Shown: positions 1,391-17,226 of the stretch, piece by piece
How positions within the stretch are numbered: the first letter of the stretch is position 1
Layout of the letters: the number at the start of each line of letters is the position of its first letter
DNA from: Desulfovibrio sp.
Lineage (GTDB): Bacteria; Desulfobacterota; Desulfovibrionia; Desulfovibrionales; Desulfovibrionaceae
DNA: 45,452 nucleotides
Direction: 5' to 3'
NCBI GenBank assembly: GCA_031260965.1
Contig: JAISKK010000158.1
Span: 1-45,452 of the forward strand
The notes under the pieces: generated by a model
Told to the model about the DNA's origin: nothing
The model's input: the letters and a program-made list of their open reading frames with translations, nothing else
Database searches by the model: none
Position numbers and translations under genes: made by a program

Positions 1391-2839
1391 TCAAAACTGG
1401 AAATAGATAAAGGGCAGCACCCCGTCCGGACCCATGCGCAGGATAAGCCCGGTGAGAAATGCTGTCAGCGCGACCTGCGCCGGCCAGGGCAGCGCGGCCT
1501 GAATGCGCAGAAAAAGCGACTGGATGGATGGTCCAGCCCACTGCAGGGCCAGACCTGCGGCTATGGCAGGCAGGGCGGCCAGGGGAAAGCCGATCCCCGG
1601 CTGTCCCCAGAAGACGAGACGTTTGAGGATCAGCAGGGCCGTATCCATATCATCCGCCCGGAAAAAAACCCAGGCCAGACAGACAAAATGAAAGGTCAGA
1701 AACCAGGAACAAAAACGGGCCGGGGTCAGCGCCCCCGGTGCTTCTTCCCTTCTCTCGCCCTCGCGTGAGAAATGGATCGGCAAAGCCCGCCAGATATGCA
1801 GAGATATAAGGGCCAGACCATGCAACAGGCCCCAGACCAGAAAACGCAGATGCGCCCCGTGCCAGAGACCGCCAAGCAACATGGTGACAAGCAGATTGCG
1901 GCAAAGCGCAGATCCGCCTCCCTTGTTCCCGCCCAAGGGGATGTAGAGATAATCGCGCAACCAGAAGGACAGGGAGATATGCCAGCGCCGCCAGAAATCC
2001 TGAATATTGAGACAAAGATAAGGCGCCTTGAAGTTTTGCGGCAAAGTAAAACCCATCAACCTGCCCAGACCCAGGGCCAGGTCCGTGTATCCGGAAAAAT
2101 CGCAGTAAATCTGCAGGGCATAGCCATAAACGGCGATCAGCGTCGCCCAGGACGAATAGCAGTCAGGGGCCTGAAAGACCCCCCGCGCCACCTCCTCGGA
2201 TAAAAAAGAGGCCAGAACAACCTTTTTAAAAAGACCGCTCAAAATCAAAGCCGCCCCTTCCGAAGTATTCCTTTCTCCTCCTGGGGCTTTGTCCAGTTGC
2301 GGAAAAAACTCGCCCGGACGCAGGATAGGCCCGGCCAGAACAGTAGGGAAAAAAGACAGATAGGTCAAAATACGCAGATAAGAACAGGCTTCCCTGTCCG
2401 GGTTCCGGTACTGTTCAATAATATAAGCTATGCCCTGGAAAGAATAAAAGGAGATGCCGATGGGAAAGGGCAAATCCGCAAGGCCCACCGGCGAAATCGG
2501 CCCCCATTCGGCTTCGGCCAGCAGATCATTCACAAGCTGCAGGAAAAATTCATAATATTTAAACAGCGCGAGCAAAGCAAGACAGACGCCAACGCCAACA
2601 CTCAGGACTGTTTTACGGTCGATGGGGGGGCTATCTTTGGCCAGCAGCCGTCCCGTCCCCCAAACCACAAAACTCACAGCCGGCAGCAAAGGCAGGAAAT
2701 ATAGACCGCCCGCGGCATAAAAAGCCAGATTGGCAAAGAGCAGAAAAAAACGACAGAGGGACGCTCGACCCTGCAATAGCCAGCCGCCGCCAAGCACAAC
2801 AAGAAAAAAGGCGGCGAACTCAAGGGTTACAAAATTCAT
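1391..2839 (-). CDS. MBOAT-family O-acyltransferase (AlgI/PatA-like)
   Basis: 482-residue polytopic membrane protein of the MBOAT family, which moves acyl groups (usually acetyl) across the cytoplasmic membrane to a periplasmic acceptor. Family signatures: PIGISFYSFQGIAYIIEQYR (~residues 126-145), the CDFSGYTDLALGLGRLMGF block (~246-264), DFWRRWHISLSFWLRDYLYIPLGG (~281-304, His287) and the catalytic segment GGLWHGAH (His327). The ATG at 2839 overlaps the stop of the upstream SGNH gene by 4 bp (ATGA), so the two are translationally coupled. MBOAT plus SGNH is the architecture of alginate (AlgI/AlgJ-X) and peptidoglycan (PatA/PatB) O-acetylation. No alginate genes are present and a lytic transglycosylase lies in the same gene string, so peptidoglycan or another envelope glycan is the more likely acceptor (inference). 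Last gene of the minus-strand run; no clear terminator seen before the IS remnant. Confidence 0.85.
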   Translation of the reverse strand: MNFVTLEFAAFFLVVLGGGWLLQGRASLCRFFLLFANLAFYAAGGLYFLPLLPAVSFVVWGTGRLLAKDSPPIDRKTVLSVGVGVCLALLALFKYYEFFLQLVNDLLAEAEWGPISPVGLADLPFPIGISFYSFQGIAYIIEQYRNPDREACSYLRILTYLSFFPTVLAGPILRPGEFFPQLDKAPGGERNTSEGAALILSGLFKKVVLASFLSEEVARGVFQAPDCYSSWATLIAVYGYALQIYCDFSGYTDLALGLGRLMGFTLPQNFKAPYLCLNIQDFWRRWHISLSFWLRDYLYIPLGGNKGGGSALCRNLLVTMLLGGLWHGAHLRFLVWGLLHGLALISLHIWRALPIHFSREGERREEAPGALTPARFCSWFLTFHFVCLAWVFFRADDMDTALLILKRLVFWGQPGIGFPLAALPAIAAGLALQWAGPSIQSLFLRIQAALPWPAQVALTAFLTGLILRMGPDGVLPFIYFQF

Positions 2840-3591
2840 GGCCGGCGGCCATCCGCCTTGAGCAGGGGTGAGCGGGCAAAGAGCAGGGACTCCCAGCGCG
2901 CATAACCGGATTTGCTCAGGTGGACGCCGTCAAAGGTGAAATCCGCCGGAAGCATCCCTGAACCGTCAGCCAGTTTCTGGTGCGAATCAATCACGGCATA
3001 GCCGCCCTCGGCGGCGATGCGCTTAATCCCGGCGTTCATGTTCCGGATCATGGCCGGGTTCACGCGGTTGCCGAACTGAACGCGCTTACCCTTGCCCCTG
3101 CGCACAGGCAAAATGGTTGACACCGCCAGTTTCGGGGTGTCGGCGCTTAAAATGCGGCAAAGCTCGGCATAGGACTGAAAAAATTCCGGAAGCTTGTCCG
3201 GGCGGATACGGGAGTCATTCACCCCCAGGGCCACTATGATGCGTTCCGGTTTCAGAAGCTCAAGCAACAGGGGGGCCCGGGGCAGCCAGTCGTTAACCCC
3301 GGCGCCCTGCACTCCTGCGGCAAAAATATCCGCGTCATGATATTTCTTGTACATTCCCTCCACGATACTGTCCCCGATGACCAGGACAGCGCAGTTTCCC
3401 ACCCTCTCCGCCTGCTCAAGAAGGGCCGCGAAGCGCTCGTTTTTCGGGCCTGAAAGCTCTACGGGCATATCGGGGGCAGGGGACGGTACTTCGAGGGGCA
3501 GGGTGGAATGGGAGCAGGAAAACGACAGGGCGCAGATCAGGATCGACAGGCCGGCAAGGGCCGGCAATTTTTTGAAAAGCGGGAAGGTCAC
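2836..3591 (-). CDS. SGNH/GDSL hydrolase-fold protein, exported; probable partner of the MBOAT protein
   Basis: 251 residues with a GTG start (3591). The N-terminus is a hydrophobic export signal ending in a Cys-containing stretch (ALSFSC, Cys26); it is not a textbook lipobox, so lipoprotein processing is possible but unproven. SGNH blocks are complete: GDS with nucleophile Ser75, a Gly in the block II region (GVQGAG), GxND as ALGVND (Asn125), and the catalytic pair in DGVHL (Asp221, His224). In PatB and AlgX such domains accept acetyl from an MBOAT partner and place it on a glycan; related proteins remove acetyl groups. The 4-bp ATGA overlap with the MBOAT gene argues for work on the same acyl group. 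Direction of reaction and acceptor cannot be read from sequence. Confidence 0.8.
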   Translation of the reverse strand: MTFPLFKKLPALAGLSILICALSFSCSHSTLPLEVPSPAPDMPVELSGPKNERFAALLEQAERVGNCAVLVIGDSIVEGMYKKYHDADIFAAGVQGAGVNDWLPRAPLLLELLKPERIIVALGVNDSRIRPDKLPEFFQSYAELCRILSADTPKLAVSTILPVRRGKGKRVQFGNRVNPAMIRNMNAGIKRIAAEGGYAVIDSHQKLADGSGMLPADFTFDGVHLSKSGYARWESLLFARSPLLKADGRRP

Positions 3592-3603: not shown

Positions 3604-5148
3604 TTATTTGACGGACGCCAGAGGAAGCGGTGGATTTAAGGCCTTCAAGATAGTGGGCATGACAAAAGCGGCCAGAATATCGCCGCCTTCCATGGTGATG
3701 TGAATTTTATCCTTGGCCCGGACACGGACGGGTTTGTTGTCCCGGCCATTCAAAAAGGTGGTGTAGCGCCCCTCGCTGTCAGCCAAGGTAAGATAATTGT
3801 CAATAAACAATGCCGAGCCATTTTCCGCGCAGGCGGCCTGTTGCAGCAGAGATACAGTGCGCAGGATTCGCCCGGCCGGTTCAACCCCGGCAATGGGCAA
3901 ACCGAGCCAGATTACTTTGGCGCCTCGGGACTGGGCCACACGCAAAAAATCCGTAGCGCGGCGCTGGTAAGCCGCCTCCCAGGATGCTGTCCCGACTATA
4001 TAGCGCTTTTTCGTCTGATCCACGATATTGTTGCCGTCATTGGCCCCGATGCAGATGACGACCAAATCCGGGCTATGCTGCGTGATCAGTTCATCCAGAT
4101 GTTTCTGCCAGTTAAAGGTGTTTATGCTGCAAAGTCCGGTGGAGGGGCGGGTATCACGCACTGTCCTGACGCCGGACCGGCGGCTTAAAGATCGCTCCAG
4201 AACATTTCCCAGTCCCCAGCCCATCATGGAATCGCCGACCAGAAGCACTACCTTATCCTTCTCCGCCCCGGATTTTCCAAGCGAACCGGATCGCGCGGCA
4301 AGGGCCGGAGACTGCGGCAAAGCATTCGCCGGCAAAGCCGGGGACGCTTCCCCTGTTTCCGGAATCCGCCCGGAGGAGGCGCGGGCATTGGCAAAGGAAG
4401 GGGCGGCTGCCTGCGCCCTGTCTAAAATCCGCCCGGCGGAAAACGCGTCCAGGGGCGAAGAGACGGGGGGGATTTCCGCGCTTTCGGCTTGCGCCGGGTC
4501 TTGAAGCGCAGGTTCCGGGGTCAGAAGCGCAGGTTCCGGGCTTTGCGCAAGTTTTACGGAAGGTTCTGAAGAAATGCTTGAGGGAGAAGCGGGCAGAGAG
4601 TCCGAGGGAGAAGCGGAAGAATCCTCCCTCAAATAGCGGGAGGAAGAAGCGAAAGCCGGGTCTGAAAGGGGAACGGCGCTTTTTGCGCCGATCAGGCTTT
4701 TATCGACCAGACTCAGCACCAGTTCGTTCTCCCGCTCCGTCAAGGCTGCCAGACCACTGGCCTCGCCTGCCGCACGCACAAGACTTATGCCCTTTTCCAG
4801 CAGCGGGTTCGGCAAAAAGTCGTCAAGAAAGAGGGTGAAGCGCCCGGATTCCAGGAGCAGAACCAGGGCAAAGACTGAGGCGAAGACGGCAAAAGCCCGG
4901 CCCGGGCTTTGCTTCTGAGGAGGACGAATGGTCCCGGAAAATCCGGCGGCTTTTGGGCCGGCGCCCTGACGGGAAAGAAGGGACTGTGCGCGTTCCGGAA
5001 TGGATAATATTTCCGCCCGCGCGGAAGGAGCGGATGCCGGACGGACAGCGTTTTGCCCCCGCGCCTTGCGGCGCAGGACTTCTTTAGTGCGGCGGCGACA
5101 GGCTTTATCGGTTTTCTGGGCGGCGGATTTCTGTTTCCTCTTGGACAT
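3604..5148 (-). CDS. Membrane-anchored SGNH protein of the DUF459 type with long Pro/Ser/Ala linker
   Basis: With the ATG at 5148 the protein has 514 residues. This start has a GGGA 6 nt upstream; an in-frame ATG at 5154 lies directly against that GGGA and the longest frame (start 5235) has no better site. Order: Arg/Lys-rich cytoplasmic segment (~1-80), one transmembrane helix (~85-101), a ~180-residue low-complexity Pro/Ser/Ala/Glu linker with short internal duplications (for example a repeated ~18-21 bp unit at about 4502-4541 encoding PEPAL twice), then a C-terminal SGNH domain. The domain shows LLVGDSMMGWG (nucleophile Ser ~307), a CIGANDG block and a KDKIHITMEG segment as the D-x-x-H pair. 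DUF459 proteins are otherwise little characterised. It ends 12 bp before the small SGNH gene. The cytoplasmic tail, single helix and flexible linker suggest a hydrolase held near the cell wall (inference). Confidence 0.75.
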   Translation of the reverse strand: MSKRKQKSAAQKTDKACRRRTKEVLRRKARGQNAVRPASAPSARAEILSIPERAQSLLSRQGAGPKAAGFSGTIRPPQKQSPGRAFAVFASVFALVLLLESGRFTLFLDDFLPNPLLEKGISLVRAAGEASGLAALTERENELVLSLVDKSLIGAKSAVPLSDPAFASSSRYLREDSSASPSDSLPASPSSISSEPSVKLAQSPEPALLTPEPALQDPAQAESAEIPPVSSPLDAFSAGRILDRAQAAAPSFANARASSGRIPETGEASPALPANALPQSPALAARSGSLGKSGAEKDKVVLLVGDSMMGWGLGNVLERSLSRRSGVRTVRDTRPSTGLCSINTFNWQKHLDELITQHSPDLVVICIGANDGNNIVDQTKKRYIVGTASWEAAYQRRATDFLRVAQSRGAKVIWLGLPIAGVEPAGRILRTVSLLQQAACAENGSALFIDNYLTLADSEGRYTTFLNGRDNKPVRVRAKDKIHITMEGGDILAAFVMPTILKALNPPLPLASVK

Positions 5149-8189: not shown

Positions 8190-9335
8190 TTAAAATTTAA
8201 ATTGCGTCGTCTGTCGCCAAGTGTAATAGGCCGGGTCCCGAAAATCATCAATAAGGTGGTGAGTAAACTCAAGTCCGGCCAGGGAGAAAAACCTCTCCCA
8301 GCCGATGCGTTCAACCCATTCGCCCAGACGCTCGTATTTGCGCGCCCCGGCAGCATAAATTTCCACTATATTCTTCACCACCGCTGTAACTTTGGGCCAG
8401 CGCGGGGGCTCATTGGGGATATAGGCCACCACCACCTTGGAAAACTTGGGCGCGGTGATGCGGTTGGAGACCTTGCCGCCGACCATCACGGCGATGCCGT
8501 CCCCGAAGCCGTCGGAAATAGGCAGGGCCGGACACATGGTGTAACAATTGCCGCAGTACATGCAACGGTCCTTGTTGATAGCCAGGGATTTGACCTCCTC
8601 GCCATTGCGCTCGACCTTGACCTGACGTACGGCCCCCGTGGGACAGGAGGCGACAGCCAGGGGCATTTCGCAGAGTCGCCCCGTCCATTCATGGTCCACC
8701 ATGGGCGGTTTTCTATGCACGCCTACCAGACCGATGTCCGAACAATGCACGGCGCCGCACATATTTATGCAGCAGGCCAGGGAAATGCGCAGATGAGCGG
8801 GCAGACGCATGGCCCCGAACTCGGCGAAAAGCTCGTCCATGACGGCCTTCACCGGCCCGGAGGCGTCCGTGGCCGGGGTGTGGCAATGCACCCATCCCTG
8901 GGTGTGGACAATGTTGCTGATGCCGGCCCCGGTTCCACCCACAGGAAATTTTTGCGAGCCGCCGGGGAATGCGCGCGTGGACAGATCCGCTTTGAGGGCC
9001 TGCAGATCTTCCGGGTTATCAGTCATGAACTCGATATTGTTGCGGGTAGTGAAACGCACAAAGCCTTTACAGTATTTATCCGCTATTGCGCAGATTTCCC
9101 TCAGGTGGGTGACGCTCATAAGGCGGGAGGCCCCGCAGCGCAGGGTGTAAACCTTCTCGCCGCTCTCGGCCGTATGCACAAGTACGCCGGGGGCAAGAAA
9201 TTCATGGTAGAGCCATTTTCCCTTGTTTCTGGCGATCACGGGCGGATAAAATTCGTCATAACGGCGCGGCCCGATGTCGCTGACCCGGTTTTCCATGGGC
9301 TTTTCCGGATTATATCCCGAAGATGTGACAGTCAT
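8190..9335 (-). CDS. dsrB: Dissimilatory sulfite reductase beta subunit
   Basis: 381 residues, full length. DsrB carries the functional siroheme-[4Fe-4S] centre that reduces sulfite by six electrons with DsrC. Centre ligands are Cys151, Cys188, Cys189 and Cys193 (in WVHCHTP and LACCINMC), the same positions known from Desulfovibrio vulgaris DsrB. The inserted ferredoxin domain shows CPTG (Cys231) and [12 protein letters not shown] (Cys258, 261, 264, 268). The ATG at 9335 has a GGGGAGGG site; the gene lies 17 bp after dsrA and 23 bp before dsrD, so all are cotranscribed. Nothing is degenerate or missing. Confidence 0.98.
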
Positions 9336-9352: not shown

Positions 9353-10666
9353 CTATCTTTTATGGCGCTTGCGGTGCGCCTCAAGGTCACGTTCAAAGCC
9401 GCCCGGCACCTCGTCCTCCTTGAAGAACATATAGGGATTATGGCGGGGTTCCTGGACATGCGCGGCCTGAGGCTTGATGCCGGTAACATCAAGCAGACGC
9501 TGGAAGGAAAGACGGCGGATGGTTTCACCCAAACGTTCCCGGTTCTTGCCTTCGCTCATCCACCAGTCCCAGATTTTCTCAATAATATCTTTGACTTCAG
9601 TGTATGGAGGAGTCACCTCGACAAAGGGCAGGAGCAAGGAACCCATCTGCGCGCCGTCCAGCACAGGGGCTTTGGCGCCCACAAAAATGCTGGCCCCGCG
9701 CTCGGACCCAATGCGCAAGGCGCGCGGCATGGCGTTTATGCAGTGCATGCAACGGGTGCATTCCCTGTTGTTTATACGCAATTTAGACCCGTCCCAGGAC
9801 ATGCAGCCGGTCGGACAACGTTCGACAACTTCCTTTTGGATGTCGAATTTGCCCCAGTTCCGTCCGGAATGCGCTCCCGCGTTAGGGGCAAACTCCCCGC
9901 CAACATAGGCTGCCACGGCGGAATGGTCCATCTTTATGTCGTCCTTCCAGGTTCCGATGAGGGAGAAGTCCGCGCGGGCAATGGCCGCTACACAACCGTT
10001 GGGGCAACCGTCAAATTTGAACTTGAACTTGTAGGGGAAGGCCGGGCGGTGCAATTCGTCCTGATAGGACAAGGTCAAATCATGGCAAATATCCTGGGTG
10101 TCAAAACAGGCGAACTCGCAACGGGACGGTCCCAGGCAGCATTCCGGAGTGCGCAGGTTGGACCCGGAACCGCCCAGGTCCGAATCCAGATCGTGGGTGA
10201 GTTCGAAGAAAATCTCCTCAAGTTGCGGCGTCTGGGTTCCGAGCAGCACAATGTCCCCGGTCGAGCCGTGCATATTGGTGAGCCCGGAACCGCGCCGCTC
10301 CCAGAGATCGCAGACGGCGCGCAGATATTTGGTGTCATAGTACTTGGCGGAGGGCTGGTTCACGCGCAAGGTGTGAAACTGGGCCACACTCGGAAATTGT
10401 TCCGGCTGGTCACAATAGCGGCCAATCACTCCGCCGCCGTAACCGAACACTCCGACAATCCCGCCGTGCTTCCAGTGCGTTTCCCCGTCATTATAGGACA
10501 GTTCCAGCACGCCAAGCAGGTCTTCCGGACAATCAGCGGGGATCTGGTGTTCAACTTTGTTCGGATTCTCAATCCGGTTGACCGCTTCCTGTTTGATGTC
10601 GGAAACGAAGCTGGGCCAGGGACCGGACTCCAGCTCGTCCAGCTTGGGGGTTGGATGTTTAGGCAT
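9353..10666 (-). CDS. dsrA: Dissimilatory sulfite reductase alpha subunit
   Basis: 437 residues, full length. Siroheme-site cysteines are Cys177, Cys183, Cys221 and Cys225 (in ECCLGPSRC and FDGCPNGC), in exact register with D. vulgaris DsrA. The ferredoxin domain has CPTGC (Cys284, 288) and CTRCMHC (Cys303, 306, 309). [12 protein letters not shown] is the usual substrate-domain block. DsrA and DsrB form the alpha2beta2 enzyme in the cytoplasm that reduces sulfite and yields the DsrC trisulfide. First gene of the operon: ATG at 10666 with AAGGAG 6 nt upstream and a good promoter at 10709-10738. The sequence is of the reductive bacterial type (dsrD present). Confidence 0.98.
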
Positions 10667-10744: not shown

Positions 10745-10811
10745 ACCGTAAAATCTTTGTCTTTCTCCGCCCTTTGCGATATTGGCAATTCATAATAAAA
10801 AAGGCGGAAAG

Positions 10812-11633
10812 ATGACAGAAAAAAAAATCCTGATCCTCGGAGTCGGCAACATCCTGTATGGAGACGAGGGGCTGGGGGTCCATGCCCTGCGCCTTCTGGA
10901 AGAACAATACTCTTTTCCGAAAAATGTCGCCCTTGTGGACGGTGGGGTCATGGGCAAACTCCTCATGGCGGAGCTGATGGATCATGATTTTGTCATCATC
11001 CTGGACGCCGTGCTCGGCGGCGAAACTCCGGGGACTCTATACCGCCTGGAGGACGAAGCTTTACGCAAGAGCCTGGGCTTTCGCGATTCCCAGCATCAGG
11101 TGGATCTGGTTGACACCCTGATCAGTTGCGAGATGCTGGGAAAACGGCCGAAAGCCGTGGTCATGGGTATGGAACCCCTGCAATACACGCAGATCTCGGA
11201 TCATCTGAGTGAGCTTTGCGCATCCGCCCTGCCCGGTCTTGTCCGCCACGCCCTTGCGGAACTGGAGGCGGCTGGAATCAGGGATGTGGTACGCAAAAAA
11301 AACATTCTCGCCCTTCCCGGCACGAATCTTCCGGCAGAGGGCGGAGAATTTTTTGAAACCCTGCTGGAGCGGGGCGAAAAGGTGAGCCTGCAACGCATCG
11401 TCTCCAGGGGACATCGCTCCGGACAGGATTTCTGGTATGAGCAGGACGAGGATGAATGGGCGCTTGTCCTTGAAGGAGAAGCAGGCATCGGCTGCGCGGA
11501 CGGGCGCGAAATATTCCTGTCCAAAGGGGACAGTCTCTTTCTGCCCGCAAAGCTGCGGCATCGGGTTCTTTACACCAGCGACCCCTGCGTCTGGCTCACG
11601 CTGCATGGACACTTCGGCAAGTTTATTTCATAA
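10812..11633 (+). CDS. Hydrogenase maturation protease (HyaD/HybD family) fused to a C-terminal cupin domain
   Basis: 273 residues from the ATG at 10812, chosen for the AAGGCGGAAAG site just upstream (an upstream in-frame ATG at 10782 has none). Residues ~4-160 are a [NiFe]-hydrogenase maturation endopeptidase: GVGNILYGDEG (Glu19), ILDAVLGG (Asp65) and RDSQHQVDL (His95) correspond to the three nickel-probing residues of HybD (Glu16, Asp62, His93). Such proteases remove the large-subunit C-terminal peptide after nickel insertion. Residues ~165-273 form a separate cupin of the 'GQDFWYEQDEDEWALVLEGEA...GDSLFLPAKLRHRV' type; the first cupin motif lacks the usual HxH, while His250 is present in the second. 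No hydrogenase subunit lies nearby. Divergent from dsrA with 145 bp between starts; convergent with the thioesterase 10 bp downstream. The cupin's role is unknown; metal handling or sensing is a guess. Confidence 0.85.
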   Translation: MTEKKILILGVGNILYGDEGLGVHALRLLEEQYSFPKNVALVDGGVMGKLLMAELMDHDFVIILDAVLGGETPGTLYRLEDEALRKSLGFRDSQHQVDLVDTLISCEMLGKRPKAVVMGMEPLQYTQISDHLSELCASALPGLVRHALAELEAAGIRDVVRKKNILALPGTNLPAEGGEFFETLLERGEKVSLQRIVSRGHRSGQDFWYEQDEDEWALVLEGEAGIGCADGREIFLSKGDSLFLPAKLRHRVLYTSDPCVWLTLHGHFGKFIS

Positions 11634-11643
11634 ATCCTGGAAA

Positions 11644-12087
11644 TTACTTAGAATAATTGTTATCATGCTTTTGCACAATGTAAAAAGTCGCTCCGGCCCT
11701 TGCCAAAAGACGGCTATGCTCATCCAGGACATCCGCCTCAGCCGTGCATAAAGCGGAGCCGCTCTTGATTACCCGGCCCACCGCGGTCAACAGACCATCG
11801 CGTTCCGGTCCTCCGGAACGCAGATAGCGGATGTTCATCTCCGCTGTGACTGTGGGATGTTCGTTGTCGGGCATGGACATCACGGCATGGGCCATGGCTT
11901 CATCGGCCAGAGTGGCCAGAATGCCGCCGGCCACCACCCCCCCGCCCTGAATCAGTCCGGGGGAAACAGGCAGGGTAATGCAGGCCTGTCCAGGAGCCGG
12001 AATACTGAGACGTGCATTAAGAAAAGTAAACAGAGCGTTTACTTTTTGATCTTCTTTGCACGCTTCCGTTAAATATGTGGAATCCAT
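11644..12087 (-). CDS. Hotdog-fold thioesterase, PaaI/YigI-like
   Basis: 147 residues from the ATG at 12087 (GAGG 5 nt upstream; a GTG at 12093 is less well placed). The hotdog core is seen in LIQGGGVVAGGILATLADEAMAHAV, the family's 'qGGvlatLaD.a...A' helix with its catalytic-type Asp, followed by TAEMNIRYLRS and the ALCTAEADVLDEHSRLLARAGATF strands. These enzymes hydrolyse acyl-CoA thioesters and are often attached to catabolic operons as housekeeping CoA-recycling enzymes. The gene follows the ComC-like gene by 53 bp on the same strand, so it may be the last gene of the transport/dehydrogenase operon. Substrate unknown. Confidence 0.78.
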   Translation of the reverse strand: MDSTYLTEACKEDQKVNALFTFLNARLSIPAPGQACITLPVSPGLIQGGGVVAGGILATLADEAMAHAVMSMPDNEHPTVTAEMNIRYLRSGGPERDGLLTAVGRVIKSGSALCTAEADVLDEHSRLLARAGATFYIVQKHDNNYSK

Positions 12088-12140
12088 TTTCACCTCAATC
12101 TCAAGCTGTATTCATTTGTTGCTGTGTTTGATGTACATTT

Positions 12141-13145
12141 TCAATATTCACCTGCTCTGGTCCGCAGATCGGTCAGTAAATCCTCCGGCAGGCTTATGCC
12201 CGCGCGCAGGCGCTTTTCTCGCTCCGCCCGCCGCCGGTCGCCGGGCAGACGCGTGTTGCCCTGCTCCAAAATTTCGGCGCAAAGCGCTTCAAGCCGGGAC
12301 AGGAAATCCGGATTGAAGGGACCGGGATCGATAAGCAGGAAGAATTGCCCCACCCCCGGCGCCGGACCCGTGGCATCAAAGAAGGAAGAAGCTTCGGAGG
12401 CGTGATTGGAACCGGTAAGCGTGGCAGCCAGAATCTCCACCATCAGGGCCAGGGCAGCTCCCTTGGCCCCGCCCAGGGGCAACATGGTGCCGCGCAGGGC
12501 GGCTTGCGGGTCAGTGGTTTCCCGGCCTTCGGCATCCAGCGCCCAGTCGGCCGGTATGGACTCCCCGCGCTGGCCGGCCAGCATTACCTTGCCGCGTGCC
12601 GCTTTGCTCAGGGACAAGTCGATGATCAGCGCTTCGCCGCGCGCGCGCGGGCAGCCAAAGGCCAGGGGGTTGGTGCCGAATACGGCCTTTTTTCCTCCCC
12701 AGGGGGCCATAGCCGCCGGGGAATTGGTGCAGGCCAGGCCAATCAGTCCGCCTGCGGCTATTTTTTCCATAAAGAAACCGAGTACTCCGCAGTGGTGCGA
12801 GCGTCTGACCCCAAGGGCGCAAAGACCCTGCTCCCGCGCCCGGACCATGGCGGCCTCAATCCCCTTTGCAATGGCCGGAAAAGCAAAGCCGTTACCGGCA
12901 TCGACCATAAGCACGGAAGGGGCCTGGACAGTAAGCCGGACTTCGGCCCCGGCCTTGACTTTGCCGGATCTCGCCTGATCCGCGTAAGCGGGCAGACGGG
13001 AGAACCCGTGCGAGGAGATGCCCTCAAGTTCGGCTGCAAGCAAAGCGTCGACAACGGCGGATGCGGCAAAGGCCGGCGTCCCGGCCGCGCCGAGAACGGC
13101 AAGGCCGAGGGCGCGCAGATCGGATGCGGAAATTAGCACACTCAT
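12141..13145 (-). CDS. comC: LDH2/MDH2-family dehydrogenase, ComC-like; candidate (R)-sulfolactate dehydrogenase
   Basis: 334 residues of the malate/L-lactate dehydrogenase (YlbC/ComC) family, NAD(P)-dependent with a fold distinct from classical LDH. Signatures: EGISSHGFSRLPAYADQ (~40-56), RRSHHCGVLGFFMEKIA (~114-130) and CTNSPAAMAPWGGKKAVFGTNPLAFGCPR (~139-167). ATG at 13145 with AGGAG 5 nt upstream. In methanogens and in Chromohalobacter salexigens ComC interconverts sulfopyruvate and (R)-sulfolactate. The specific call here rests on context: an SlcC-like dehydrogenase 54 bp upstream and a TTT transporter beyond it, the combination described for sulfolactate racemisation. Malate, ureidoglycolate or other 2-hydroxyacid activity cannot be excluded from sequence. 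Confidence 0.65.
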   Translation of the reverse strand: MSVLISASDLRALGLAVLGAAGTPAFAASAVVDALLAAELEGISSHGFSRLPAYADQARSGKVKAGAEVRLTVQAPSVLMVDAGNGFAFPAIAKGIEAAMVRAREQGLCALGVRRSHHCGVLGFFMEKIAAGGLIGLACTNSPAAMAPWGGKKAVFGTNPLAFGCPRARGEALIIDLSLSKAARGKVMLAGQRGESIPADWALDAEGRETTDPQAALRGTMLPLGGAKGAALALMVEILAATLTGSNHASEASSFFDATGPAPGVGQFFLLIDPGPFNPDFLSRLEALCAEILEQGNTRLPGDRRRAEREKRLRAGISLPEDLLTDLRTRAGEY

Positions 13146-13199
13146 TACAACTCCTGCGCTTTTAATAAAATTGCCGCAATAAACGGCCCCCTGAAATCA

Positions 13200-14123
13200 T
13201 CAAAGTAAAGCTGCCCGCACTTTTTCCGCGATCAGGGCGCTGACCCGGACATTGGATTCTCGCGTCACCCCGGCGATATGCGCTGTAAGGATGCAATTCG
13301 GGGCGTCCGCCAAAGCCGTCCCGGCCTTTAAAGGTTCCTGCGCGTAAACATCAATGAGCGCCCCGCCCAGGCGTTTTTCCCGCAGAGCGGCGGCCAGGGC
13401 CGCCTCATCCACAATGCCCCCCCGCGCTGAATTGATGAAAAAGGCCCCCGGACGCAGGCGGGCGATGCGTTCAGCATCAAACAAAGAACGCGTGTCCTTT
13501 GTAAAAGGCAGGTGCAGACTCACGGCCTCGGACCGGGCGAGAAGATCATCAAGCTCCAGACGCTCAACTCCGCAGATCTGCCAGCAAGGGTCCTGAGCCG
13601 GGATAAGCGGATCATGGGCCAGAATACGCAGACCGAAGACCCTGGCCCGCTCGGCCACAGCGCGCGCTATGCCGCCGAAACCGACCAGACCCAGGCTTTT
13701 GCCGTACAATTCACCCCCAATCTGTCTTTGCCGGGGCCAATTCCCGGCGGCCACAGAGGCGGAATCCCAAAAACAGCCCCGGAAGAGCAAAAGCAGACCG
13801 GCCATGACATATTCGGCCACCGCGATATTGTTGGCCCCGGTGGCAGGGAAGACCTTGATCCCCTTCAGACGGCAATAGTCCAGATCAATATTGTCCAGGC
13901 CGACGCCCAGACGCCCCACAACCTTGACGCCGCCCGCCCCGGCAAGCAGGTTCTCCCCCACCCGGGTGCGGTTGCGGACAATCAAAGCCCGGCAATCGGC
14001 AAGCAATTCGGTCAGACGCTGCGGGGAATCAACGAGAGCTTCGTCATAAATAACGCTGAAATCACGGCGCAACATAGCCACCGCCGCCTCATCCATAAAT
14101 TCGCTGATTACTATATCACTCAT
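13200..14123 (-). CDS. slcC: D-isomer-specific 2-hydroxyacid dehydrogenase, SlcC-like; candidate (S)-sulfolactate dehydrogenase
   Basis: 307 residues, SerA/D-hydroxyacid dehydrogenase superfamily without an ACT regulatory domain, so not a typical phosphoglycerate dehydrogenase. Seen: VVGRLGVGLDNID, the NAD fold GLVGFGGIA with following basic/acidic switch, the catalytic Arg region NSARGGIVDE and catalytic His in LTAHIAG, plus AEYVMAGLLLL. Strong ribosome-binding site (AAGGAGG) before the ATG at 14123. Known SlcC enzymes are ~310 residues, oxidise (S)-sulfolactate to sulfopyruvate with NAD+, and are encoded beside the SlcHFG TTT transporter and ComC. The gene lies between a TTT transporter and a ComC homologue in one minus-strand unit, which supports that role; it remains an inference. 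Confidence 0.65.
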   Translation of the reverse strand: MSDIVISEFMDEAAVAMLRRDFSVIYDEALVDSPQRLTELLADCRALIVRNRTRVGENLLAGAGGVKVVGRLGVGLDNIDLDYCRLKGIKVFPATGANNIAVAEYVMAGLLLLFRGCFWDSASVAAGNWPRQRQIGGELYGKSLGLVGFGGIARAVAERARVFGLRILAHDPLIPAQDPCWQICGVERLELDDLLARSEAVSLHLPFTKDTRSLFDAERIARLRPGAFFINSARGGIVDEAALAAALREKRLGGALIDVYAQEPLKAGTALADAPNCILTAHIAGVTRESNVRVSALIAEKVRAALL

Positions 14124-14159
14124 GTGCCTCCTTCTGCAAGCGCATGTAAGACAAGGATC

Positions 14160-14618
14160 TCAGTAAAAAAGGCCTTCCGGGGTCGGTACGCCGAGCAGTT
14201 TGGCGAAAGCGGCCCACACCGCCAGACACATGATCGCCGTAAGCAGGCAGGCCGCCTTCAGACGGCGGACTTTGGATTCGTTGAGAACCATGGCCGCGCC
14301 GAAGAGAAAGAGGGCGCTGGCCGCATAAAAGCCCAGGATGGGGATGAAAATCGCATAAAGCAGGGAAGCCGCGGATATGATCAGCACCCTTTTGACGGCC
14401 ACGGGTTCGGCGTCAATCCGCGCCTCCCCGTCTTCCGCGCGTTGCCGGGCGCGCAGACCGGAAAAGATCAGGGCCAGGACGCATAAAACCATAAAGGCCA
14501 GAATCAGCAGGGGATAGTTCAGTCCCGTGCCTTCCAGATCCCCGGTGTTAAGGAAAAAAAGGCCGGACAGGGCCAGGGCGAAGACGGCGGCGACCAGATC
14601 AGAGGTGCTTTTGCGCAT
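14160..14618 (-). CDS. TTT transporter small membrane subunit (TctB family)
   Basis: 152 residues with about four hydrophobic helices (residues ~8-24, ~34-54, ~80-105, ~115-140), the size and topology of TctB. It is the poorly conserved small permease subunit that pairs with TctA for sodium- or proton-driven uptake of carboxylates. The ATG at 14618 lies inside the end of the TctA gene (20-bp overlap), indicating coupled translation. The stop at 14160 is 36 bp before the SlcC-like gene. By position it corresponds to one of the two membrane proteins of the SlcHFG sulfolactate transporter. Confidence 0.8.
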   Translation of the reverse strand: MRKSTSDLVAAVFALALSGLFFLNTGDLEGTGLNYPLLILAFMVLCVLALIFSGLRARQRAEDGEARIDAEPVAVKRVLIISAASLLYAIFIPILGFYAASALFLFGAAMVLNESKVRRLKAACLLTAIMCLAVWAAFAKLLGVPTPEGLFY

Positions 14619-16107
14619 GACGGCGTTTCCTGTTCAGTATGAAGGGGGTGCACAGGGAAAGCAGGGTAAGGAAAATAAGCAGCATGGCGATGGAGCTGTC
14701 CATAAACACGCGCAGTATGGAGCCGTCCACGGCTTTGGACAGGCTCACGCATTTGCCGAAATTCTCCTCAATCATCGGTCCCAGGATGATCCCCAGGGCC
14801 ATGGCGCCGGAATCCAGCTTGATCCGGTTGCAGATATAGCCGATCAGCCCGAACACCAGAACAATCCAGATGTCCAGCACACTGTTGCGGATGGAATAGG
14901 AGCCGATTACGGACAGCATGACGATGGCGATGGCCACGAAGGTCAGGCGTATGCTGAGCAGGCGCACCATAAGCCGGATCAGCAGCAGACCGATGGGGAT
15001 CATCAGCAAATTCACGGCGAACTGCGAAAAAATAAAGGTATAGGCCAGATCCCCGGTAGCCGTGAAGACCTTGAAGCCCGGCTGAATGCCTTTGGCCAGC
15101 AGCGCGCCCAGCATAACTGCGGCCACGGCGCTGCCGGGTATGCCCAGGGTGAGCATGGGGATGAGCGCGCCTCCGATTACCGCGTTATTGGCGCATTCGC
15201 TGGAGGCCACCCCCTCGATTATACCCGTGCCGTAACGGTCCGGATTCTTGTCCCAGCGCTTGCTCTCGTTATAGGCGATTATGGCGGCTATTTCCCCGCC
15301 CGCGCCGGGCAGCATGCCCACCAGAGTGCCGATGAGCGAGGAACGCAGCAGCACGATTTTGCATTTGCCGGCCAGCTCGCGCACTACTTGCCCGAAAGCC
15401 CCCGGCGTGGGATTATACTGAGCTATATAGGGCTTATAGCTGCCGATCAGATAAAGCACCTGGGAGAAGGAAAAGAGACCGATCATGGCCGGGATGACCT
15501 CTACGCCCTGGATCAGCGGATAATAGCCGAAGGTAAAGCGGGGGGCGGCGCCGTGCGGGTCAAGGCCCACGGTGGCCACCAGCATCCCTATGGCCCCGGA
15601 CACAAGCCCCTTGAGCATGTTGCCGGAAGACATGACGGCTATGGTGGACAAGCCGAAGAGGCAGAGCCAGAAGCTCTCCGGCCCGCCGAACTTGACGGCG
15701 AAGCGCGCCAGCGGAGCGGCCAGGCAGAGCAGAAAAGCCACGCCCACCATCCCTCCGAAAGCCGAGGTCAGAAGCGAGGCGATCAGGGCCTTGTCGGCCT
15801 TTCCGGCCTGACACATGGGCCAGCCGTCAAAGGTGGTGGCCACGGAGGAGGGGGTGCCGGGGGTGCAAATCAGACAGGCCGAATTGGACCCGCCGTAAAT
15901 TGCGCCGGCATAAATCGCCCCGAGCATGATCAGTCCACTGGTGGTGTCCATGGCGAAAGTGACGGGAACCATAAGGGCCACGCCCATGGTGGCGGTAAGA
16001 CCGGGCAGGGCGCCGATTATTATCCCTCCGGTCAGTCCGGCGATCATCAGAAAAATATTCAGCGGATCGCAAAGATTCAGAAGGGCCGGCATAAAAAATT
16101 CGTTCAC
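14599..16107 (-). CDS. TTT transporter large membrane subunit (TctA family)
   Basis: 502 residues, about a dozen transmembrane segments. The two family glycine/proline motifs are present in the two halves: IGALPGLTATMGVAL near residue 32 and VGMLPGAGGEIAAIIAY near residue 260; GGALIPMLTLGIPGSAVAAVMLGAL is also typical. TctA forms the transport pathway and receives substrate from the TctC binding protein. Start is a GTG at 16107 with GGAG 8 nt upstream; ATG codon 6 has no better site. Follows the binding-protein gene after a 171-bp spacer that contains a perfect hairpin. Substrates of the family range over citrate, tartrate, aromatic acids and sulfolactate; context suggests the last. Confidence 0.92.
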   Translation of the reverse strand: MNEFFMPALLNLCDPLNIFLMIAGLTGGIIIGALPGLTATMGVALMVPVTFAMDTTSGLIMLGAIYAGAIYGGSNSACLICTPGTPSSVATTFDGWPMCQAGKADKALIASLLTSAFGGMVGVAFLLCLAAPLARFAVKFGGPESFWLCLFGLSTIAVMSSGNMLKGLVSGAIGMLVATVGLDPHGAAPRFTFGYYPLIQGVEVIPAMIGLFSFSQVLYLIGSYKPYIAQYNPTPGAFGQVVRELAGKCKIVLLRSSLIGTLVGMLPGAGGEIAAIIAYNESKRWDKNPDRYGTGIIEGVASSECANNAVIGGALIPMLTLGIPGSAVAAVMLGALLAKGIQPGFKVFTATGDLAYTFIFSQFAVNLLMIPIGLLLIRLMVRLLSIRLTFVAIAIVMLSVIGSYSIRNSVLDIWIVLVFGLIGYICNRIKLDSGAMALGIILGPMIEENFGKCVSLSKAVDGSILRVFMDSSIAMLLIFLTLLSLCTPFILNRKRRHAQKHL

Positions 16108-16167
16108 GCTGCTTTCTCCGTTGCCTTTTGCGGGGTCAAAGAATGTCGCGGGGTGACGATGCGAAGG

Positions 16168-16197
16168 GCGCCGGGGAAAAACGGCTTTCCCCGGCGC
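16168..16197 (-). other. Perfect 12-bp intergenic hairpin between binding-protein and permease genes
   Basis: GCGCCGGGGAAA (16168-16179) pairs perfectly with TTTCCCCGGCGC (16186-16197) over a 6-nt loop. No U-run follows on the transcribed (minus) strand, so it is more likely an mRNA-stabilising or partially terminating element that raises binding-protein levels over the permease, as in other binding-protein operons. Confidence 0.6.
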
Positions 16198-16226
16198 AGC
16201 TGGAACATTTTGCGCATGAGATCGTC

Positions 16227-16254
16227 GCTTGCGGCAGGCAAAAGCCCGCCTGCT
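16227..16254. repeat. REP-like intergenic palindrome, copy 1
   Basis: The 28-bp sequence from GCTTGCGGCAGGC to GCCCGCCTGCT contains the arms GCAGGC and GCCTGC (16234-16239, 16248-16253). About 25 of its positions match 39343-39369, an unrelated intergenic site, and the likeness extends ~15 bp to the left. Confidence 0.45.
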
Positions 16255-16278
16255 CCAGCGTCCGGACTTTATCCCCGC

Positions 16279-17226
16279 CTATTTCTGCGGGAAAGCGGCC
16301 TTGACGACGGCATCCAGGGAAATCATGTATTTCAGCAGATCCGGACCGTCCAGATATTCAGACGGCTGCCCGGCGACCCTCATATCCTTCAGGTATTCCG
16401 GGTCCAGACAGATCTTTTTAAAAACGTCGCGCAAAAAGGCCAGATGCTCGGCCGCTATGCCTTTGGGAGCGGCAAAGCCGCGCCGGATATCGGAGAGCAC
16501 GTCAAAACCCGCCTCGCGCAGGGTCGGCACATCGGGCAGAAAATCATTGCGCTTTTCAGCCGCCACTCCGACTATGCGCATTTCCTCAAGGCTGCGCATC
16601 ACGTCGTTCAGGTTGCCGAACATGACGTCTATTTCCCCGCCCAGAAGGGCCGCGTTCTGGTCCGCCGCACCCTTATAGAAGACCTCGGTCACGGGGAAGT
16701 CAAATTTTTTCTTCACGTCCACAAACATGAGGTGGTGGCCGCTGTTCGGCCCGACCAGCCCCAGCTTCAGCTTGCCGGGATTGGCCTTGGCGTGGTCGAA
16801 AATTTCCTTCACGCTCTTGAACCGGCTGTCCTTGCGCACAGCCACGGTTTGGGGATCGTTGACCACCTGACAGATATAGTCAAAATCCTCAAGTTTGAAC
16901 TGCGCCTTCTGGGTCACTGCCTGAATCACGATATGGGGAATGTTTATGCCCCCGATGCTGTAGCCGTCTTTTTTGGACATGGCGATTTCGCCAAAGCCGA
17001 TGGCTCCGCCCGCTCCGGTCTTGTAGATAAAGGTCCAGGCCTGATTGACGTGTTTGTCCCAATACTTCTGCATGATCCGGGCCTGCACGTCGCTGGAGCC
17101 GCCGGCCGTAAAAGCGATGATCATGTTGACGGGTTTTTCCGGATACTTGGCATAAGATACGCCACCCGCCGCCAGAAACAGTGCCGCGGTAACAAGTAAC
17201 ATCTTTGCGAGGAAACGCGCTTTCAT
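16279..17226 (-). CDS. TTT transporter periplasmic binding protein (TctC/Bug family)
   Basis: 315 residues with a clear Sec signal peptide (hydrophobic ~9-24, cleavage near SYA-K). The mature start KYPEKPVNMIIAFTAGGSSDVQAR is the hallmark of Bug/TctC proteins ('yPskPvrlivpf.aGGs.D..aR'), and further family segments (KTGAGGAIGFGEI, GLVGPNSGHH, GEIDVMFGNLNDV, DVPTLREAGFD) are intact. It binds a carboxylate ligand in the periplasm through water-mediated contacts and delivers it to TctAB. First gene of the unit; ATG at 17226 with GGAGG 4 nt upstream. By homology of arrangement it is the SlcH-type component of a sulfolactate transporter (inference). Ligand choice cannot be read from the sequence. 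Confidence 0.92.
   Translation of the reverse strand: MKARFLAKMLLVTAALFLAAGGVSYAKYPEKPVNMIIAFTAGGSSDVQARIMQKYWDKHVNQAWTFIYKTGAGGAIGFGEIAMSKKDGYSIGGINIPHIVIQAVTQKAQFKLEDFDYICQVVNDPQTVAVRKDSRFKSVKEIFDHAKANPGKLKLGLVGPNSGHHLMFVDVKKKFDFPVTEVFYKGAADQNAALLGGEIDVMFGNLNDVMRSLEEMRIVGVAAEKRNDFLPDVPTLREAGFDVLSDIRRGFAAPKGIAAEHLAFLRDVFKKICLDPEYLKDMRVAGQPSEYLDGPDLLKYMISLDAVVKAAFPQK

Follow-up and report, generated by a model that had tools for sequence, protein, structure and literature searches.

The stretch analysed here (the window) comprises 45,452 nucleotides and is the entire contig C37 (JAISKK010000158.1) of a 2.46 Mb Desulfovibrio sp. draft genome of 164 contigs, which is 95.7% complete with a contamination given as 0.29%. 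Five genes on its minus strand at 12141-17226 very probably form, judging from sequence, an slcHFG-slcC-comC cluster, which would import 3-sulfolactate and convert its (S)-enantiomer to the (R)-enantiomer. The first gene in transcript order encodes a TctC-type, SlcH-like substrate-binding protein (315 aa, 16279-17226; PF03401, E = 8e-32). It is followed by genes for the TctA-type large membrane subunit of a tripartite tricarboxylate-type (TTT) transporter (502 aa, 14599-16107; PF01970, E = 4e-138) and for a TctB-type small membrane subunit (152 aa, 14160-14618; PF07331, E = 2e-18). Pfam searches of the window open reading frames (ORFs) thus reveal a complete TctC-TctA-TctB set encoded together with two dehydrogenase genes. 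The latter specify a predicted (S)-sulfolactate dehydrogenase, SlcC (307 aa, 13200-14123), assigned from PF00389 and PF02826, clade and motif, and a predicted (R)-sulfolactate oxidoreductase, ComC (334 aa, 12141-13145), assigned from the Ldh_2 family (PF02615, E = 7e-105) and clade. The genes are tightly spaced, with 171 nt between TctC and TctA, a 20 nt overlap of TctA and TctB, 36 nt between TctB and SlcC and 54 nt between SlcC and ComC. A preliminary description of this DNA had proposed a five-gene, single-strand cluster here, and every ORF was found at the position claimed for it, on the minus strand and with Pfam families that agree. It had also described the 307-residue D-2-hydroxyacid dehydrogenase (2HADH) as lacking an ACT domain; indeed only PF00389 and PF02826 matched.

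Identity of the two dehydrogenases

Pfam and NCBIfam alone would not suffice to identify either dehydrogenase as SlcC or ComC, and the predicted assignments are decided by phylogenetic trees. The window SlcC falls inside a clade of SlcC proteins linked to ComC (52 rows) with ultrafast bootstrap/SH-like approximate likelihood ratio (UFBoot/SH-aLRT) support of 100/100 and a stem of 1.03, and this clade is set apart from phosphoglycerate dehydrogenases (PGDHs) and from the 2HADH paralogues of the window genome and its relatives. The catalytic residues R234, E263 and H282 are kept in all 53 relatives compared. A V-R-N-(R/K)-T motif runs through the clade, with V-R-N present in 53/53 relatives versus V-R-S in two PGDHs. 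In the SERA enzymes, the Arg-Ser motif of that loop supplies the arginine to which the phosphate group of the substrate binds (PMC6303947). The SlcC of Chromohalobacter was placed in or beside the SERA clade, yet 3-phosphoglycerate was not accepted as a substrate (PMC6303947). Phosphoglycerate dehydrogenase was considered as an identity for the window SlcC and rejected on the tree and on the V-R-N versus V-R-S motif.

The ComC tree places the window protein within a 16-row Desulfovibrionaceae set (support 97) that includes the protein of G039, a genome of the same family assembled as a single 2.17 Mb contig. The larger, 109-row ComC group has a support of 86, and a branch with support 99 separates this group together with the Pip2C enzyme from the remaining outgroup proteins, which were taken from the PDB. 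This was a quick tree in which the longest outgroup branches are unreliable, while the ingroup placement is independent of them. The window ComC lies in a clade of suyAB-linked members, apart from the malate, ureidoglycolate and Pip2C enzymes of the PDB. Malate and ureidoglycolate dehydrogenase identities for ComC were rejected on this tree. The expectation in the preliminary description that both proteins group with SlcC and ComC, and not with malate, glycerate or ureidoglycolate enzymes, is borne out, as the trees place both in suyAB-linked clades.

SuyAB and the conservation of the gene set

The sulfolactate lyase SuyAB is absent from the window and had been expected elsewhere in the genome, where a search located the pair on another contig (C103 of the window genome, G000). 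A genome search with PF04295 returned this one site only, at about 52042-53492, where a free-standing SuyA of 94 aa is followed, with an overlap of a few bases, by a SuyB of 390 aa. In galactarate and altronate dehydratases the two parts are usually fused, and the split form is of the SuyA-SuyB type. SuyB matches in 199 genomes of the family form two sets, one at 66-87% identity and the other, consisting of other UxaA-type proteins, at 41% or less. The upper set includes loci that carry SlcC and ComC, and the window-genome SuyB is 73-87% identical to the SuyB of such Desulfovibrionaceae loci. In nearly all upper-set loci read, SuyA immediately precedes SuyB; in the few others the SuyB match is cut or partial. 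A search for the SAF domain (PF08666) returned two longer proteins only and missed SuyA, which was identified from the ORF preceding SuyB. NCBIfam is unable to name either subunit because it gives only distant galactarate dehydratase matches. Read by eye, the ORFs adjoining suyAB on C103 are, to one side, a phosphatidylserine-decarboxylase-like gene and, to the other, a sensor kinase together with the gene upstream of it; neither a transporter nor a dehydrogenase belonging to the pathway was seen among them.

ComC and SuyB co-occur strongly across the family. A ComC of 47% identity or more is present in 31/199 genomes, 29 of which have SuyB (Fisher p = 4e-21, uncorrected for kinship); in a 30th, G073, SuyB lies next to ComC and is cut by the contig start. 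Counted from coordinates, the two genes are within about 15 kb of each other in 16 of the 31. The association extends to the 80 best named ComC relatives in the genome_contigs collection, most of which are Alpha- or Gammaproteobacteria, the remainder comprising some Desulfobacterota and Acidobacteriota and a single actinobacterial bin. Many flanks in this survey were cut by contig ends; of the available flanks, 52 contain SuyB, 39 contain SlcC and 61 contain at least one of the two. Desulfovibrio desulfuricans SIG61 carries a single run of suyAB-TctC-TctA-TctB-SlcC-ComC, and the Halomonadaceae Litchfieldella and Vreelandella carry suyAB-TctC-TctA-SlcC-ComC. On plasmids of Paracoccus versutus and Methylobacterium radiotolerans, both dehydrogenases were found near suyAB by a protein-level search; a DNA-level search of plasmids gave no match.

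The transporter shows the same context. Relatives of the window TctC (60-74% identity) and TctA (68-82%) adjoin suyAB in G056, G068, G176, G183, G102, G066 and other Desulfovibrionaceae. In G056, which belongs to the same genus as the window genome, the TctC (70% identical) and TctA (82%) lie directly after suyAB in a suyA-suyB-TctC-TctA-TctB locus (L090, G056:C103, 7444-12244) without SlcC or ComC there, and this organism probably uses only (R)-sulfolactate or handles the other isomer differently. Loci in genomes of genus g40 (L025-L032) hold a separate ComC-like branch, 47-52% identical to the window protein and without an adjacent SlcC, in genomes that carry SuyB far away; these enzymes may work in another reaction direction or with another partner. 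Within the genus of the window, for which 15 genomes including the window's were examined, dsrA was not found in 7/15 and a close suyB is present in only 5, the window genome counted. Both sulfite respiration and sulfolactate use thus look patchy in this genus.

Could the cluster instead serve another hydroxy acid, such as a tartronate-, malate-, glycerate- or ureidoglycolate-like compound? In favour of this, carboxylates are the usual cargo of TTT transporters, the two dehydrogenases belong to broad families and receive only generic Pfam assignments, and their top PDB hits are malate/lactate and phosphoglycerate dehydrogenases. Yet both proteins fall outside those families in the trees, their relatives co-occur and sit with suyAB, and SuyAB is present in the genome, which makes another substrate highly improbable.

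Several observations weigh against a sulfolactate assignment all the same. The best NCBIfam match of ComC is the L-sulfolactate dehydrogenase model NF040650, at 217 bits versus a cut-off of 500 bits. This cut-off seems non-discriminating here, because the suyAB-linked bacterial relatives match the model only at E = 3e-69 at best (13 suyAB-linked or close ComC relatives compared), and the model seems to have been built on a narrower set than the bacterial clade, perhaps an archaeal one. In addition, suyAB is unlinked to the slc cluster in the window genome, lying on a separate contig, and the window type of ComC is found in no other of the 15 genomes of the genus. Finally, the Halomonadaceae loci and G039 stand in for the characterised Chromohalobacter SlcC and ComC sequences in our comparisons.

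Proximity to dsrAB

The preliminary description put the cluster about 1.5 kb from dissimilatory sulfite reductase, and we measure ~1475 nt from the ComC stop to the dsrA start. The reductase genes, dsrA (alpha subunit, 9353-10666, minus strand; TIGR02064, 613 bits, cut-off 393) and dsrB (beta subunit, 8190-9335, minus strand; TIGR02066, 478 bits, cut-off 341), are bona fide, as both subunits score above the curated cut-offs. Between cluster and reductase lie a minus-strand gene for a hotdog-fold thioesterase (149 aa, 11644-12093; PF03061/TIGR00369) and a plus-strand gene for a HycI/HupD-type hydrogenase maturation protease with a C-terminal cupin (283 aa, 10782-11633; PF01750, PF07883, and TIGR00140 over its cut-off). 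No relative of the thioesterase was found in any sulfolactate locus examined, and it is probably not part of the pathway. Since the plus-strand gene, to which the preliminary description does not refer, intervenes, a single transcript running from the slc cluster into dsrAB is implausible. An operon joining dsr and slc was considered and rejected on the opposite strand of this gene together with the lack of conservation of the arrangement.

The placement had been taken further, as an organosulfonate-respiration locus; on this view the racemisation genes and the terminal reductase would be co-regulated. The short distance and the shared strand are in line with this proposal. The plus-strand gene argues against it, and so does comparison of the coordinates in the 30 other ComC-bearing family genomes, in none of which dsrA lies near ComC among the matches listed; likewise, dsrA is in the flank of none of the 80 named ComC loci. 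Within the genus, CobB stays adjacent to dsrAB, the sequence available upstream of dsrA in G150, G173, G095 and G019 lacks an slc cluster, and the place beside mraZ that slc takes in the window is filled in G056 by TRAP-transporter-like genes (tripartite ATP-independent periplasmic). As far as sampled, the slc-dsrAB adjacency looks private to the window genome. The dsr neighbourhood is weak evidence of a functional locus because it is not conserved elsewhere and is split by an opposite-strand gene, and this part of the preliminary description does not stand: a functional adjacency is very unlikely.

An assembly error is scarcely more probable. In a draft, metagenome-like genome, dsrAB and the dcw cluster could have been joined wrongly to the slc cluster, and an arrangement not found in relatives would fit such a join, as would the contig ends of G056, G095, G019, G158 and G180 shortly upstream of dsrA, where a repeat or a variable site might lie. 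Against this, G+C stays at 0.55-0.62 throughout the region without a break, although such continuity is only weak evidence where the joined genomes would be related; both dehydrogenases are of the type seen in Desulfovibrionaceae; and the reported contamination is 0.29%. Chance or a misassembled join explains the closeness of dsr as well as selection does, and most likely it is a chance arrangement of the window genome. In two other draft genomes of the genus (L212 of G131 and L214 of G141), the MraW match contains one in-frame TGA each.

Predicted sulfolactate respiration and its published counterparts

These data suggest a pathway in which the TTT transporter SlcHFG would import 3-sulfolactate, SlcC would oxidise the (S)-enantiomer to 3-sulfopyruvate with NAD+ as oxidant, and ComC would reduce sulfopyruvate to (R)-sulfolactate. 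The S-to-R conversion would feed SuyAB, from which sulfite would be released, and DsrAB would then reduce sulfite to sulfide as terminal electron acceptor, with pyruvate supplying carbon and electrons. Gene content and order, the presence of SuyAB and DsrAB, the clade membership of both dehydrogenases and the conserved transporter context are read from the genomes; we infer the substrates and the stereochemical course of the individual steps, the co-expression of the genes and a role of the route in growth. The interpretation in the preliminary description holds in part: its functional assignment (import, S-to-R conversion feeding SuyAB, and passage of sulfite to DsrAB) finds strong support in the SuyAB pair and the two clades, and a special role of the dsrAB neighbourhood finds none.

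The racemisation system is known from other organisms. Denger and Cook (2010) reportedly described sulfolactate racemisation by a TTT transporter SlcHFG, SlcC and ComC, with a SuyAB lyase, in Chromohalobacter salexigens, and all of these components are common to both organisms; C. salexigens, however, is an aerobe without sulfite respiration, whereas the window genome has DsrAB. The closest counterpart is Taurinivorans muris LT0009 from the mouse gut, in which slcHFG-slcC-comC lies next to hpsN-dctPQM2-suyAB with DctQM fused, racemic sulfolactate serves as electron acceptor for growth and raises the expression of both clusters, and sulfite is reduced by DsrAB-DsrC (PMC10507020). The locus of G039 reads TctC-TctA-TctB-SlcC-ComC, a GntR regulator, a histidinol-dehydrogenase family protein (HpsN type), DctP, fused DctQM and SuyA-SuyB, from which we infer that G039 is T. 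muris or a very near relative. With T. muris the window genome has in common the family, the content and order of the five-gene cluster, and the presence of SuyAB and DsrAB. It differs in the identity of its SlcC and ComC to the G039 proteins, which is only about 46-50%, in the position of the cluster 1.5 kb from dsrAB, and in a suyAB pair on another contig with no hpsN or dctPQM beside it.

Two earlier reports are also relevant. The acidobacterial metagenome-assembled genome SbA5 (2018) contains suyAB, slcC and comC alongside dsr genes limited to sulfite reduction (PMC6018796); it resembles the window genome in this combination but belongs to another phylum, and no SlcHFG importer was found in it. 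Bilophila wadsworthia (2021), a sulfite-reducing member of the family, likewise uses SuyAB for sulfolactate, the enzyme being induced by 3-sulfolactate as electron acceptor (PMC8667426), but it also respires taurine and isethionate via IslA, of which our searches of the window genome gave no clear counterpart. Given these reports and the T. muris study of 2023, the idea is already in the literature, and the combination of an slc cluster with Dsr respiration is not new, as it is described for T. muris (PMC10507020).

The locus represents a known pathway, split in its arrangement, in another lineage and is not novel as a system. Judged by gene content, the Desulfovibrionaceae gain a further lineage with the capacity for both sulfolactate enantiomers, and the locus shows that genes for racemisation can reside away from those for the lyase. 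Plant sulfosugars, cysteate and bacterial spores are sources of sulfolactate, whose respiration yields hydrogen sulfide. The assignment helps in annotating genomes and in predicting where hydrogen sulfide is formed, and opens no new biochemistry.

Other sources of sulfite were sought in the genome. Sat was not found in this 95.7% complete draft, Xsc gave matches far below the cut-off only, and CuyA gave matches below the cut-off only. No clear isethionate lyase was recognised either, as the sole glycyl radical enzyme of the pyruvate formate-lyase (PFL)-like type matches hydroxyproline dehydratase with a higher score than isethionate sulfite-lyase and stays below every specific cut-off. Thus, of the sulfite-releasing sulfonate enzymes looked for, SuyAB alone was recognised. 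Thiosulfate and free sulfite are possible further inputs to DsrAB. Tentatively, and with the odds rather against it, the organism might be a near-obligate sulfolactate respirer, with SuyAB as its only recognised sulfite source and racemisation opening both enantiomers as electron acceptor.

The glycyl radical enzyme (838 residues; L081, G000:C55, 1078-3594, minus strand) is encoded beside an activase (103-1008) and a TauB/SsuB-like ATP-binding cassette (ABC) ATPase (3633-4535), and this transporter hints at a sulfonate or similar substrate. Its active-site region reads NMSCVGTGI, with a Gly two positions after the apparent Cys versus the Glu usual in dehydratases. An AprA-type protein (L078, G000:C58, 601-2406, minus strand) scores below the TIGR02061 cut-off and above that of NF005331; its neighbours encode a small ferredoxin-like protein (303-689) and an ABC ATPase of a sulfate/molybdate-type transporter (2318-3418). 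T. muris similarly has AprAB homologues and no Sat (PMC10507020). At the end of the window contig, an SsuA-family substrate-binding protein (21-890; a weak TIGR01728 match, with no permease in view) is possibly part of a second sulfonate uptake system.

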